A stretch of 41,678 nucleotides of DNA, from positions 1-41,678 of the IMG/VR virus record IMGVR_UViG_3300023112_000038; one strand, given 5' to 3'. The notes beneath the pieces are model-generated. The model was not told where the DNA came from and made no database searches. It worked only from the letters and a program-made list of their open reading frames with translations. This DNA comes from a virus. How positions within the stretch are numbered: position 1 is the first letter of the stretch; every line of letters starts with the position of its first letter. Both the position numbers and the translations under genes were made by a program. Positions 13,117 to 18,137 of this stretch are shown one piece after another.

Positions 13117-13145
13117 TTGACATATCAATAAAAGTAGTGTATTAT
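13117..13145 (+). promoter_or_regulatory. Sigma70-type promoter for the deazaguanine operon
   Basis: TTGACA at 13117-13122, 17 bases, TATTAT at 13140-13145, then TATATTG. The next plus-strand promoter seen is at 17554, so this one probably serves the genes from 13183 to 17567. Confidence 0.8.
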
Positions 13146-13271: not shown

Positions 13272-13281
13272 GAGGGAAAAA

Positions 13282-13461
13282 ATGAAAAAATTATTAGTAT
13301 CAACAACATTAATTATCATGTTATCAGGATGTAGTGTACATGTGAACGACGATTATTGTGATTATGATGATGATTGTATGTGTAAGTTCGATCATTGTAG
13401 AGACGTACGAGAAGACTTTGAAAGTTGTGAATATTTATTGAATGAATGTAGGAAAGGATAA
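13282..13461 (+). CDS. Small cysteine-rich lipoprotein, 59 aa
   Basis: Starts at 13282 after TAGGAGGG. A Lys-Lys and hydrophobic N-terminus (MKKLLVSTTLIIMLSGC) ends in the lipobox LSGC, so it should be lipid-anchored after signal peptidase II cleavage at Cys17. The mature part has seven more Cys and many Asp, implying disulfides in the periplasm or on the outer membrane. It ends 4 bases before queD. Such small phage lipoproteins can act in superinfection exclusion, but that is inference. It could also be an o-spanin-like protein, though it lacks Pro. Confidence 0.75.
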   Translation: MKKLLVSTTLIIMLSGCSVHVNDDYCDYDDDCMCKFDHCRDVREDFESCEYLLNECRKG

Positions 13462-13465
13462 AAAT

Positions 13466-13882
13466 ATGAAAATAACAAAAGAATTCAGATTCGAGGCATC
13501 ACACAATCTATCAACAAATGATAAGTGTGATTATGGTCCGTGCTCCAATATTCACGGACATTCATACAAGTTGTATGTAACAGTGGAAGATAATATCAAT
13601 CCAGATACTTTTATGGTAATTAATTTCAAAGATCTTAAAAAAGTAGTTAATGAAGAGATAGTCGATAAGATCGATCATACTCATTTAAACGAATCTTTTT
13701 CTAAATTATACAAGGAAAATAATTTCAGACTAGATATTCTGGACAAAGCATTATTAGGAGAAAAAGTTTATACTACATGTGAGGTAATGTCAACATTCAT
13801 TAAACATATTCTTCAAGGACACTTGGGATGTAAGGTAACTATCAAGTTATATGAAACTGCTACATCATTTTGTGAGGTTTAA
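13466..13882 (+). CDS. queD: 6-carboxytetrahydropterin synthase QueD
   Basis: Second step to preQ0: turns 7,8-dihydroneopterin triphosphate into 6-carboxy-tetrahydropterin. At 138 residues it is the usual size. Zinc His residues are in FEASHNL and HGHSY, and a Cys lies shortly before (CDYGPCSNIHGHSY). HTHLNE near residue 75 and the closing YETATSFCEV also fit the family. The start is the ATG at 13466, preceded by AAAGGAT; an upstream ATG in frame at 13442 lies inside the lipoprotein gene. First of five consecutive genes in the deazaguanine pathway. Confidence 0.93.
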   Translation: MKITKEFRFEASHNLSTNDKCDYGPCSNIHGHSYKLYVTVEDNINPDTFMVINFKDLKKVVNEEIVDKIDHTHLNESFSKLYKENNFRLDILDKALLGEKVYTTCEVMSTFIKHILQGHLGCKVTIKLYETATSFCEV

Positions 13883-13883
13883 A

Positions 13884-14576
13884 ATGAACAAGATAATGGC
13901 ATCAAGTATATTTGAAGCAATTCAAGGAGAAGGCAAAAATACTGGAAAGTATACTCTTTTTATTAGATTATATACTAAGCATTGTTTTCCAAATAAGAAA
14001 AAATGCAAATTCTGTGACACAGTAGGACAGGATTATTATAAACCAGTATTCAGTGAGAGTGAGATATTAAGAAGAGTAAAAGAGATTAAGCCTTCTATGA
14101 TAACTATCACTGGAGGAGAATTCTTTAGAATTGACCCACTAGTAGCTAAAGATTTCATGTATAAGTTAAATAATGTTTGTGACTATATAGAGTTAGAAAC
14201 AAACGGATCATTAACTATAGATCAAGTGCCTTTACTTAAACACTTCAATAATGTTAATATATCAATGAAATTAGAAAATTCTGGAATAGACTTTGAATAT
14301 GATATGCAAACACTTCAAAGTACTACACGTTTGTTTGAAGATAAGATATCCTGGAAATTCGTAGTAGGTAAAAATACAGAGAGAGACCTAGAAGTTATTA
14401 ATGAAATTGTTTATGATATTAATATTAAAAAGACCAATGTGTGGTTAATGGGTATGACACCAAATACAAATGATTTCAGAAGAAAGTTAGTAGAATTATG
14501 CATTGAAAATAAATATAATTATTCACCGAGACTCCATATTGATATATATGGGGATTGTGTTGATTTCGAAGTATAG
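13884..14576 (+). CDS. queE: 7-carboxy-7-deazaguanine synthase QueE
   Basis: Radical SAM enzyme that contracts the pterin ring to 7-carboxy-7-deazaguanine. Visible: EAIQGEGKNTGKYTLFIRL, the typical QueE opening; a cluster motif HCFPNKKKCKFCDT; and TITGGEF, the GGE motif that binds SAM. The cysteine spacing is C-x6-C-x2-C, wider than the usual C-x3-C-x2-C, an insertion of three residues. The ATG at 13884 follows GTGAGG and starts just after the queD stop. Length 230 is normal. Confidence 0.92.
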   Translation: MNKIMASSIFEAIQGEGKNTGKYTLFIRLYTKHCFPNKKKCKFCDTVGQDYYKPVFSESEILRRVKEIKPSMITITGGEFFRIDPLVAKDFMYKLNNVCDYIELETNGSLTIDQVPLLKHFNNVNISMKLENSGIDFEYDMQTLQSTTRLFEDKISWKFVVGKNTERDLEVINEIVYDINIKKTNVWLMGMTPNTNDFRRKLVELCIENKYNYSPRLHIDIYGDCVDFEV

Positions 14577-14586
14577 GAGGAATTAT

Positions 14587-15189
14587 ATGAAATCCAATAG
14601 TAATGAATTAAAAACGCCAAAAGAAAAACAAAAAATCATTAATAAGCTTGAGAAAAGTTTTAAGAAAATTCTTGAGGATATGGGATTTGATGTTGAAAAT
14701 GATCAACAATTAACTGACACACCAAAGAGAATATCAAAAATGTGGGTTAATGAATTATTTACAGGATGTTATGATGAAGAACCAAAGATAACAGTATTTG
14801 AGAATGATAATAATGTTGACAGCATGATTTTTCTTGGTCCTATCAGTTTAAAGTCTAATTGTAGTCATCACTTTATTCCGTTTATCGGAAAAGCATATAT
14901 TTCTTACATACCTAATGATAAAATTATAGGTGTAAGTAAACTTGCTAGAATTGTTAAATGGTTTATGAGAAGACCTCAGATACAAGAAGAACTAACACAA
15001 CAAATTGCCGACTATATAATTGATAAATTAGATCCTAAAGGTGTTGCTGTATATATTGAAGCACAGCACTTATGTATGACAGCAAGAGGAGTTGAGGAAT
15101 ATAATAGCGAAATGAAAACAAGCGAAGTCAGAGGAGTATTTGAAAAACCGGAAGTTAGATCTGAATTTTTCAATATGATAAACAAATGA
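14587..15189 (+). CDS. folE: GTP cyclohydrolase I FolE
   Basis: Makes 7,8-dihydroneopterin triphosphate from GTP, the first step toward preQ0. The 200 residues contain the conserved CSHHFIPFIGKAYISYIP (zinc Cys and His), KLARIVKWFMRRPQIQE, and AQHLCMTARGV with the second zinc Cys. The start at 14587 follows GGAGGAATT; a longer frame from 14503 runs back into queE and is not used. Same operon as queD, queE and queC, so its product is most likely channelled to deazaguanine, not to folate. Confidence 0.95.
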   Translation: MKSNSNELKTPKEKQKIINKLEKSFKKILEDMGFDVENDQQLTDTPKRISKMWVNELFTGCYDEEPKITVFENDNNVDSMIFLGPISLKSNCSHHFIPFIGKAYISYIPNDKIIGVSKLARIVKWFMRRPQIQEELTQQIADYIIDKLDPKGVAVYIEAQHLCMTARGVEEYNSEMKTSEVRGVFEKPEVRSEFFNMINK

Positions 15190-15632
15190 AAATATGTATA
15201 ATTCCGTGTGGAAGTAAAAAAATATATGATGTAAATCCATTTATTAAAGATGTTACTGCCGATAAACTATATGTCGGCAGTTTTCATAGTCTATGTAAAA
15301 GATACTCCAAATATATCAGTGATGAATATTGTATATTATCTGCAAAGCACGGATTTATATTTCCTGAAGATATAATTGAAGAAAATTATAATGTTACTTT
15401 CAATGACAAAAAAACAAATCCTATATCAATTCAGACACTTAAGCAACAACTTTTTAAGTTTGAAAAATATAATAGCATAATTTGCTTGTGTGGAAGAAGA
15501 TATCATGATATAATAGAAAGTGTTTTTGATAGAAGTATAGAGAATAGATTGAAAGGACTTAAGGGAATGGGTTATATGGTACAGTATATGACCAATGAAA
15601 TAAATAAGTTAAATGGGATAGATTTATTTTAA
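15186..15632 (+). CDS. DUF6884-like protein in the deazaguanine operon
   Basis: 148 residues. It begins KICIIPCGSKK, has a central YVGSFHSLCKRYSKY, then ILSAKHGFIFPEDII. This PCGSKK, Y.GS, LSAKHG(F/L) pattern is that of DUF6884, a small alpha/beta family of unknown reaction found in phages and bacteria. The LSAK.G segment also recalls a domain of archaeosine-type enzymes that act on 7-deazaguanine. The start overlaps the folE stop (ATGA), so its placement between folE and queC is tight. A role in altering or inserting the base is inferred. The call to the family is from memory of the pattern. Confidence 0.7.
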   Translation: MKICIIPCGSKKIYDVNPFIKDVTADKLYVGSFHSLCKRYSKYISDEYCILSAKHGFIFPEDIIEENYNVTFNDKKTNPISIQTLKQQLFKFEKYNSIICLCGRRYHDIIESVFDRSIENRLKGLKGMGYMVQYMTNEINKLNGIDLF

Positions 15633-15643
15633 GGAGGATTGAA

Positions 15644-16324
15644 ATGAAAAAAGCTGTTGTAATTTTTTCTGGAGGACAGGATTCTACTACTTGTCTAGGA
15701 TGGGCTAAAAACAGATTCGATGAAGTTATAGCAATAACTTTCGAGTATGGTCAAAAACATAATATAGAAATTGAAAGATCAAAAGAAATTTGTAAAAAAT
15801 TAAATGTCGAGCAACACATAATAGATATTTCATTTTTCGGTGAGTTGGTTGATTCAGCATTGACTCATAATGGTGATGTAAATAAGAAACACAGTAGATT
15901 GACAAATTTACCCGCATCTTTCGTTCCAAATAGAAATCAGATGTTTATCACAATAGCACATGCTTTTGCTCAGAAAGTAGATGCAAAGACTCTTATAACC
16001 GGAGTATGTGAGACAGACTTCAGTGGTTATCCCGATTGTCGTATGGATTTTATATTAGATATCGAACAAGCAACTAATAGCGGTTCAGATTCAGATATAT
16101 ACATAGAAGTTCCTTTAATGTATTTGAATAAAGCAGAAACGTTCGCTATGGCTGATATTGAAGGATGTCTTGACGTTGTTATCAATAACTCACATACATG
16201 CTATAACGGCGACGATAAGATGAATACATGGGGATATGGATGTGGTGAATGTCCATCATGTAATATCAGAGAAAACGGATGGAAAGAATATATTAATATG
16301 ATCAATAATGGTGATGTTAAATGA
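15644..16324 (+). CDS. queC: 7-cyano-7-deazaguanine synthase QueC
   Basis: ATP-dependent conversion of 7-carboxy-7-deazaguanine to preQ0. SGGQDSTT near the N-terminus is the PP-loop, and GYGCGECPSCNIR near the end supplies zinc Cys residues, with another in NNSHTCY. The NRNQMFI segment is also typical. 226 residues, usual size. AAGGAGG before the ATG. With folE, queD and queE it completes the route from GTP to preQ0. Confidence 0.96.
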   Translation: MKKAVVIFSGGQDSTTCLGWAKNRFDEVIAITFEYGQKHNIEIERSKEICKKLNVEQHIIDISFFGELVDSALTHNGDVNKKHSRLTNLPASFVPNRNQMFITIAHAFAQKVDAKTLITGVCETDFSGYPDCRMDFILDIEQATNSGSDSDIYIEVPLMYLNKAETFAMADIEGCLDVVINNSHTCYNGDDKMNTWGYGCGECPSCNIRENGWKEYINMINNGDVK

Positions 16325-17112
16325 AGTTATTCTTTGCCGGAGCTGAATCAGATTTGAAAAATCTAAATGAAATAGGAGTCAAACGACTCCTTATAACAAT
16401 CGCCCATGGAAAGAATAAGATTAAGAAGATGAATGAAATATATGATCCCGGATACGAATTAATTATGGATTCGGGAGCATTTACTTTTCATAGGAAGGGA
16501 GGAATAACAGTTGAAAAATGGTTAGAGAAAGTTAATGAAGTAAAACACAATGTAACGGAGATTATATCACTAGATGTTATAGGAGACGCTGAAAAGACTT
16601 TTGATAATTTTATAGAGATACAGAAATATCTTCCTGAAGCAATGCCTACATTTCATGTTGGATCTGATATTAAGTATTTAAAGAAATATATGGATATTAC
16701 TGATAGAATAGCAATTGGAGGAATAGTTACACATGGTGTAAATAAATTATCACTACTCAATCACTTAAATGATATATTTAAAATAGTAGATAGAAATAAT
16801 TTACCCAAACTACACGCCTTTGGTGTATTTAATCAGAAATTATTACAAAAGTATCCTTTTTATTCTTGTGATGCTTCGTCCTGGAATTCATATGCCAAAT
16901 TCGATGAATTCGAAACTATAGATATGTTTTTCAAGAAAAGAGCAAGAAGTAAGAAGAAAAATAAAGATATATTTAATTATTCTCTTGAAGAATTGATAGG
17001 CAATACTGCTGAAGAAAGAATAGATAAACTCAGAATTTCTGCTAACAACTTTTTGAAACTTGAATATTTTTTAACAAATCTATGGGAGGAAAGAGGAATA
17101 AAATGGGACTGA
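16321..17112 (+). CDS. dpdA: DpdA-like 7-deazaguanine DNA transglycosylase
   Basis: Related to tRNA-guanine transglycosylases (TGT) but linked to DNA modification. The first half has ELIMDSGAFTFH, equivalent to the TGT DSGG(F) catalytic Asp segment. It is followed by IISLDVIGD, then PTFHVGSD with IAIGGIV, then KLHAFGV, and YSCDASSWNSY as the likely second Asp site. These follow the order of the TGT barrel. At 263 residues it is shorter than tRNA enzymes (about 370) and lacks the zinc Cys cluster. Overlap with queC (ATGA) and co-location with the full preQ0 route support exchange of guanine for preQ0 or a derivative in phage DNA. Confidence 0.85.
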   Translation: MKLFFAGAESDLKNLNEIGVKRLLITIAHGKNKIKKMNEIYDPGYELIMDSGAFTFHRKGGITVEKWLEKVNEVKHNVTEIISLDVIGDAEKTFDNFIEIQKYLPEAMPTFHVGSDIKYLKKYMDITDRIAIGGIVTHGVNKLSLLNHLNDIFKIVDRNNLPKLHAFGVFNQKLLQKYPFYSCDASSWNSYAKFDEFETIDMFFKKRARSKKKNKDIFNYSLEELIGNTAEERIDKLRISANNFLKLEYFLTNLWEERGIKWD

Positions 17113-17567
17113 AACAAATAAATTTAAATGAAATAGTATCATGTAAAAAAGGAATAGGTACACTTGAAGATAAAACTAGATTCTATGATTACTATAACTT
17201 AATAGATCAAAACATAATTTTTGATGTTAACAAAACAGATAATGGATATGAACTTCTCCATGATAGCGTATATCTCTCCATATTAAAGCAAAAAAGTGAA
17301 ATAACAGTAAATGTTCATGAACTTAATAAAAGCCACTCAGATTTAATGTACATAGTTAATTGTCACAAGTTTAATGAGAAAATTAATTATATAGAAATGT
17401 CCAGAAGACTAAATGATATAAAAAGGGAAATAGATATTAAAGAAATATATTCTTTCTTATACTTTATTGATATGGGAACTATTAAGAAATTAATAGATAT
17501 AATTCATTTCAACTGGGAAGATTTCGGAATTCATATACACGATGATTCTATAGTTGACTTATTTTAA
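17103..17567 (+). CDS. Hypothetical protein, 154 aa, last gene of deazaguanine operon
   Basis: The ATG at 17103 lies inside the last codons of dpdA, with GGGAGGAAAGAGG upstream. Soluble and charged. No motif recognised. It may be a partner of the modification system simply by position. Its 3' end contains the next promoter (17554-17582). Confidence 0.75.
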   Translation: MGLKQINLNEIVSCKKGIGTLEDKTRFYDYYNLIDQNIIFDVNKTDNGYELLHDSVYLSILKQKSEITVNVHELNKSHSDLMYIVNCHKFNEKINYIEMSRRLNDIKREIDIKEIYSFLYFIDMGTIKKLIDIIHFNWEDFGIHIHDDSIVDLF

Positions 17568-17612: not shown

Positions 17613-18137
17613 ATGAATAAAAAAATAATTGTTTTCATTGGTGTTATAGGATCAGGGAAAACATATTCAGCAAATAAATTAATGAATGAAGATTCCGAGA
17701 TAATTAATTTTGCTGAAGAGCTTAGAGAAAATGTATGGAATCTAATTGGGTGGAAGCCTACTACCGGAGAAGATTATGACGAATTCAAGAAATTTGAATT
17801 CAAATTCAAAGACATATCTTTCACTGGAAGAGATATTCTAGCCAAACTAGGAACTGATATCATGAGGAAATACAATGATAGTATATGGATAGATTGTTGG
17901 AAAGAAAAGGCGACCAACTCAGATAAACAATTAATTTTGGTAGATGATTGTAGATTTGAAAATGAGATGGAAGAAATATTAAAATTTTGTGAAACCAATA
18001 ACTATGACAGTGAATTTATTTTCTGTAACTATAAATCATATAGATACAGGCTACTAGACCATGAATCAGAAAAGTTAGCAACTTCTTTATTAGATAAATA
18101 TACTGACGGAGAAACAATATCTTTTACTAGGAGATAA
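17613..18137 (+). CDS. 1: Deoxynucleoside monophosphate kinase (T4 gp1-like)
   Basis: Phosphorylates dNMPs to dNDPs for DNA synthesis. Begins MNKKIIVFIGVIGSGKTYSA, a P-loop (GVIGSGKT). The middle FTGRDILAKLGTDIMRKYND and LVDDCRFENEMEEI match conserved parts of phage dNMP kinases: R.(L/I)(L/Q).LGTd...y....W and (V)DDvRF.NE. 174 residues against 241 in T4. Ribosome site GAGGAAG. It may also be needed to handle modified nucleotides, but nothing shows that. Confidence 0.85.
   Translation: MNKKIIVFIGVIGSGKTYSANKLMNEDSEIINFAEELRENVWNLIGWKPTTGEDYDEFKKFEFKFKDISFTGRDILAKLGTDIMRKYNDSIWIDCWKEKATNSDKQLILVDDCRFENEMEEILKFCETNNYDSEFIFCNYKSYRYRLLDHESEKLATSLLDKYTDGETISFTRR

Follow-up and report, generated by a model that had tools for sequence, protein, structure and literature searches.

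A minimal DpdC core inside a phage preQ0/DpdA operon, a candidate tailoring enzyme for 7-deazaguanine DNA

We analyzed a 41,678-base contig from an uncultured virus (IMG/VR record IMGVR_UViG_3300023112_000038, 28.8% G+C; this whole stretch is referred to here as the window), which carries on its plus strand, at positions 13442-17567, a seven-gene operon consisting of queD, queE, folE, a gene of the DUF6884 family, queC, dpdA and a ParB-like gene, in this order. This operon represents a module for hypermodification of phage DNA, of the known 7-deazaguanine kind, and contains an apparently new part, a minimal DpdC core. Profile searches, catalytic motifs and AlphaFold modeling were in agreement on the identity of its genes, and in searches of Pfam, PHROG and NCBIfam/TIGR the first six of them all had matches that were strong or decisive; six family-level matches within one operon cannot be due to chance. 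A preliminary description of this DNA had placed these six genes in series, and all were indeed found on the plus strand at 13442-17112. Its mention of several 4-base overlaps was a slight overstatement, as only folE/DUF6884 and queC/dpdA overlap in this way (ATGA), and its end coordinate, 17112, was too short, since the ParB-like gene belongs to the operon as well.

The proposed pathway begins with FolE, QueD, QueE and QueC, which would convert GTP to preQ0 (7-cyano-7-deazaguanine), and profile matches and catalytic motifs bore out the earlier claim that this route is complete. The queD gene (13466..13882, with an in-frame ATG at 13442) encodes a 6-carboxytetrahydropterin synthase (PF01242, E 1.1e-26; TIGR03367, 3.8e-21), and the CxxxHGH and DHTHLN motifs are readable in its translation. 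GTP cyclohydrolase I is encoded by folE (14587..15189; PF01227, E 5.8e-59; TIGR00063, 9e-60, above cut-off), which harbors CSHH and the cysteine of CMTARG and starts at the ATG at 14587 behind an AGGAGG, the TTG at 14503 in the open reading frame listing being too early. The product of queC (15644..16324; PF06508, E 8e-75; TIGR00364, above cut-off) is a preQ0 synthase that has no glutamine-amidotransferase (Gat) domain and harbors SGGQDS and four zinc-type cysteines. As previously stated, a search of the operon found neither QueF nor a Gat-QueC.

The remaining gene of this route, queE (13884..14576), was recognized by PHROG and NCBIfam (phrog_2076, E 1.1e-27; TIGR03963, 6.3e-20) and had no Pfam match. 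Its product contains a C-x6-C-x2-C cluster loop and a TGGEF motif, neither of which was found in any other QueE of a set of 85, where C-x3-C-x2-C (54/85) and TGGEP (75/85) are usual. An unusual QueE such as this could have left the module inactive, but all frames are open, the remaining motifs are intact and QueE loop length varies elsewhere, with NCBIfam holding a Cx14CxxC type, and we regard inactivity as exceedingly improbable.

The dpdA gene (16321..17112) encodes a short form of DNA-guanine transglycosylase, 263 amino acids long, which had no Pfam match and which, among the family libraries, was recognized by PHROG only (phrog_887, queuine tRNA-guanine transglycosylase (TGT), 3.9e-35). 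A profile of 38 DpdA relatives matched 7UI4, a solved DNA-guanine transglycosylase, at 1.5e-4, in an alignment covering DSGAF and the second catalytic Asp motif (SxD), and the AlphaFold2 model (predicted local distance difference test (pLDDT) 84) matched tRNA-guanine transglycosylase folds (E ~1e-7, probability 1.00). D50, D85, H165 and D184 are invariant in 35-38 aligned DpdA sequences, and the two catalytic Asp residues, whose absence had been named as grounds for abandoning the assignment, are in place as judged from sequence and fold. Taken by itself, the insertion of a preQ0-derived base into DNA by DpdA is in our view very likely.

Behind the operon lies a deoxynucleoside monophosphate kinase gene (17613-18137; phrog_139, 5.7e-22), which would suit a scheme where the preQ0 genes serve incorporation at the deoxynucleoside triphosphate level, or else host tRNA queuosine, and DNA is not the substrate of DpdA; such kinases, however, are ordinary in T4-like phages. 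Some phages do carry preQ0 genes without DpdA (PMC6884629), but the DpdA of the window matches 7UI4 and keeps the catalytic positions, QueF, which the bacterial tRNA pathway requires, was not seen, and deletion of dpdA in phage CAjan abolished DNA modification (PMC6884629), and we find this scheme very unlikely.

The DUF6884 gene (15186..15632) was listed in the preliminary description, though its role was missed. Its product, 148 amino acids long, matches PF21818 with an E-value of 7.5e-13 (49.2 bits against a gathering cut-off of 30), and sequence comparison established its core as homologous to that of DpdC, a protein reported to hydrolyse dPreQ0 (the deoxynucleoside of preQ0) to dADG (2'-deoxy-7-amido-7-deazaguanosine) (PMC12839542, PMC6884629). 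A genome survey recovered one true dpdC-dpdB-dpdA island, and plasmids yielded more. The DpdC of the island matched PF21818 at 4.8e-5, and hhalign alignments of DUF6884 with DpdC gave a probability of 95.5 (E 1.6e-8) over 71 columns, among them C-x3-K, Y-x-G, SAxxG and Y-x2-T. The window protein carries the CxxxK, SAxxG and Y..T motifs of the DpdC core; its motif residues include C8 and K12 (CxxxK) and L51-S52-A53 and G56 (LSAxxG), with C8 and K12 as candidate catalytic residues. Its match to the DpdC model of PADLOC was weak (6.9e-4, profile positions 53-119 of 319). Published work assigns DpdC to DUF328/YaaA (PMC12839542), names DUF6884 as a domain of dpdC (PMC11888242) and relates DUF6884 to YaaA (PMC11701544). 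The best PDB fold for the AlphaFold2 model of the window protein (pLDDT 90) was likewise YaaA (E 1.7e-3, probability 0.99); PDB sequence searches gave no meaningful match.

Since DpdC is reported to turn dPreQ0 into dADG and the DUF6884 core is a DpdC core, dADG is our leading prediction for the base, rather than preQ0 itself or the product of an unknown enzyme, as was expected earlier. Gene content, homology, motifs, folds and a recurrent neighborhood lead us to propose that the operon probably functions in the manner of the bacterial DpdA/DpdC pair. Acting on the DNA of its own phage by the TGT mechanism, DpdA would replace guanine with preQ0, possibly with help from the ParB-like protein. 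In the DNA, the nitrile group of dPreQ0 would then be hydrated by DUF6884 to the amide form, dADG, and DNA modified in this way would be protected from host restriction. To this whole chain, with dADG as its final base, we give a slightly better than even chance.

The second PDB fold match of the DUF6884 model was the archaeal AF0587, a protein of unknown function, and this speaks for an alternative in which DUF6884 uses another nucleophile on the nitrile, giving an ArcS-like amidine or a lysine adduct and hence dG+ or an undescribed base. ArcS moves lysine onto preQ0 (PMC11298593), and Hutinet et al. suggested that in phages ArcS might have come to catalyze an amidohydrolase reaction like that of DpdC (PMC6884629). 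The sequence profile, however, points to DpdC, the DUF6884 protein has no Pfam ArcS match and no enzyme that could be its partner in making a lysine adduct was recognized; we judge this chemistry improbable.

The pairing of DUF6884 with these genes recurs in other viruses. An alignment query found 24 viral DUF6884 loci, 13 of which contain dpdA and 14 dpdA or que genes; counted by lineage, nine are linked to dpdA/que versus four unlinked. DUF6884 adjoins queC or dpdA in several orders (queC-DUF6884-folE, dpdA-DUF6884-queC, DUF6884-queC and others), and these differing orders argue for its repeated recruitment. The DUF6884 tree shows at least five changes of linked state on well-supported branches, and que/dpd linkage is clustered on it overall (12 changes vs 20.6 in shuffles). 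Fusobacterium phage phiFN37 and another phage (locus L024) lack preQ0 synthesis and carry ParB-DpdA-DUF6884-YhhQ, YhhQ being an importer, and in the archaeal halovirus HRTV-29 DUF6884, annotated there as YaaA, overlaps DpdA; these salvage-type sets and this overlap indicate that DUF6884 acts downstream of preQ0. Both phiFN37 and HRTV-29 resemble the window in combining the two genes, which in them lie directly side by side, and differ from it in having no adjoining preQ0 synthesis. Read more broadly, DUF6884 could be a stand-alone enzyme that viral 7-deazaguanine systems in general use for tailoring, acquired on several independent occasions and here yielding not dADG but an amidine or adduct, and so a base undescribed in DNA; this we hold to be quite improbable.

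The combination is a minority type, as only 2 of the 80 loci collected through DpdA alone carry DUF6884, and neither DpdA nor DUF6884 was present in 78 control viral loci (0.8 Mb) fetched by the DNA polymerase of the window. DUF6884 was never found together with the other tailoring enzymes, QueF and Gat-QueC, in 74 DpdA families, at p = 0.09 only and in a sample that was biased, part of it having been collected through DUF6884. When viral contigs were scanned with DpdA or QueC as single proteins, almost nothing was returned because the patterns were unspecific; alignment queries worked. Listeria "phage" records with DUF6884 look like pieces of bacterial chromosome, with a glucose-6-phosphate dehydrogenase gene adjacent, as in L006 (Listeria phage LM 4-14-1), and were left out of the phage evidence. 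In three other loci (L023, L028, L030) the order is dpdA-DUF6884-queC-yhhQ with no queD, queE or folE in the fetched flanks, queC being kept beside the preQ0 importer. DUF6884 also lies beside queC on prokaryote contigs (L114, L115, L132, L136, L138), and in two of these, from planctomycete-type metagenome-assembled genomes (L132, L138), the gene right after queC encodes a protein of 400 residues that begins with a DUF6884 domain, and no dpdA lies nearby.

Several observations weigh against dADG as the final base. DpdC is about 310 amino acids long and has a conserved C-terminal domain, whereas the window protein lacks its C-terminal 200 residues, invariant ones included, and for this reason we describe it as the DpdC core alone, a "mini-DpdC", and do not file it as DpdC; its DpdC match is also weaker than those of the other linked members tested, with other DpdA-linked phage proteins reaching 7e-9. 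The tree gives no support for placing the window protein in a que-linked clade, grouping it instead with two proteins unlinked to que/dpd, and DUF6884 also occurs in phages without DpdA, so its function is not fixed by family membership alone. Mycobacterium phage Rosebush, itself outside our collection, has DNA in which dPreQ0 makes up 28% of G and dADG 0.003% (PMC6884629), and phages of its group encode a DUF6884 protein with intact motifs, gp8 in TA17A. This means either that gp8 has no activity in that setting or that having DUF6884 is not by itself a sign of dADG; in TA17A the gene lies on the opposite strand and outside the que operon, with a terminase gene between it and folE, while in the window it is inside the operon. 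Moreover, four phages with reported dADG, the base predicted here, namely Campylobacter CP220, Salmonella 7-11, Pantoea MED16 and Vibrio nt-1 (trace), differ from the window in that no DUF6884 was found in them, which rules out DUF6884 as the explanation of all dADG phages and points to another route to dADG there. Another tailoring enzyme may also be encoded elsewhere in the genome, the record being a fragment. It is the Rosebush case, these four phages, the tree grouping and the missing half of DpdC that hold the dADG prediction only a little above even.

The same observations feed the view that the base stays dPreQ0, with DUF6884 acting in repair, in DNA binding with base flipping (a role suggested for B. 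subtilis YfjM and E. coli YaaA) or as a DpdA accessory: the gene is present in the Rosebush group, whose namesake has dPreQ0, it is found without DpdA and has unlinked nearest neighbors on the tree, and the Pfam authors proposed a DNA-repair role for DUF6884 (PMC11701544). Yet DUF6884 lies repeatedly in or beside queC/dpdA in unrelated phages, often in overlapping frames, its core is the DpdC core, and Seurat, one of the E. coli phages of the CAjan/Seurat type with dPreQ0, differs from the window in lacking it. We therefore rate dPreQ0 as the final base unlikely, and keep dADG as our prediction.

The last gene of the operon (17103..17567, alternative start 17082) overlaps dpdA by 10 bases and encodes a degenerate ParB-like protein of 154 amino acids, which is 25% identical to the ParB-like product beside phiSM dpdA (BLASTP E 4e-5) and matched a ParB-family profile built in this analysis at 1e-23. 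Of 107 DpdA loci, 36 have a ParB-like gene no more than 200 bp from dpdA, and the window protein may be a DNA-binding partner of DpdA and is a possible counterpart of DpdB. It is not a true DpdB, a DGQHR/DndB-like protein of about 370 amino acids, being shorter, without a DpdB match and without the DGxHR motif; with this motif lost, the ATP hydrolysis reported for DpdB is not expected of it.

Bacterial dpd islands (DpdA-DpdB-DpdC, of the Salmonella Montevideo type), which preQ0 genes often adjoin (PMC11888242), share with the window a TGT-type DpdA, a DUF6884/YaaA-related core (DpdC) and a ParB-like gene by DpdA. They differ in that the window DpdA is short and matches bacterial DpdA only distantly, its DUF6884 protein has no C-terminal DpdC half and its ParB-like gene has neither a DpdB match nor the DGQxR motif. 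PADLOC recognized none of the dpdD-K restriction genes among the seven operon proteins, which were all that was searched of a fragmentary genome. Cellulophaga phage phiSM is like the window in having the closest QueC (59% identical), a DpdA that aligns from end to end (27.5%) and, behind dpdA, a ParB-like gene, and is unlike it in having a QueF-like gene in place of DUF6884. Two other records hold related arrangements. In Myxococcus phage Mx4 (L157, 4797-6608) a single frame of 603 residues combines DUF6884 with a DpdB-like domain (E 1e-56), and this record had no phage-type DpdA match; an unannotated "phage" scaffold from human faeces (L163, 5998-12134; Bacteriophage sp. MT835580) carries a full dpdC-dpdB-dpdA-dpdB set followed by queE, queD and queC.

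As for the virus itself, the window encodes replication-type genes (DNA polymerase, UvsY, SbcC, late sigma factor, primase and NAD-ligase), and the DNA polymerase is 34-35% identical to cyanophage polymerases; these similarities indicate a T4-like myophage, and, with a T4-like gene set in only 41,678 bases, the record is probably one piece of a far larger genome. Upstream of the operon, a consensus scan found a possible promoter on the plus strand (TTGACA-17-TATTAT, 13117..13145), though the number of such promoter-like sites in the region was not above that in shuffles. A short frame at about 13280-13450, with a signal peptide and a lipobox (MKKLLVSTTLIIMLSGCS), runs into the queD start.

The phage route to dADG has been regarded as unsettled (PMC8306585). 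The recurrent DpdA-DUF6884 pair, also present in the named viruses phiFN37 and HRTV-29, offers a small, testable candidate enzyme for dADG and, for a Pfam family whose role was unknown, a candidate function. It further suggests a reduced phage counterpart of the bacterial DpdA/DpdC marking chemistry, in which case a single gene could help to predict which of the two bases, dPreQ0 or dADG, is present in a given phage.

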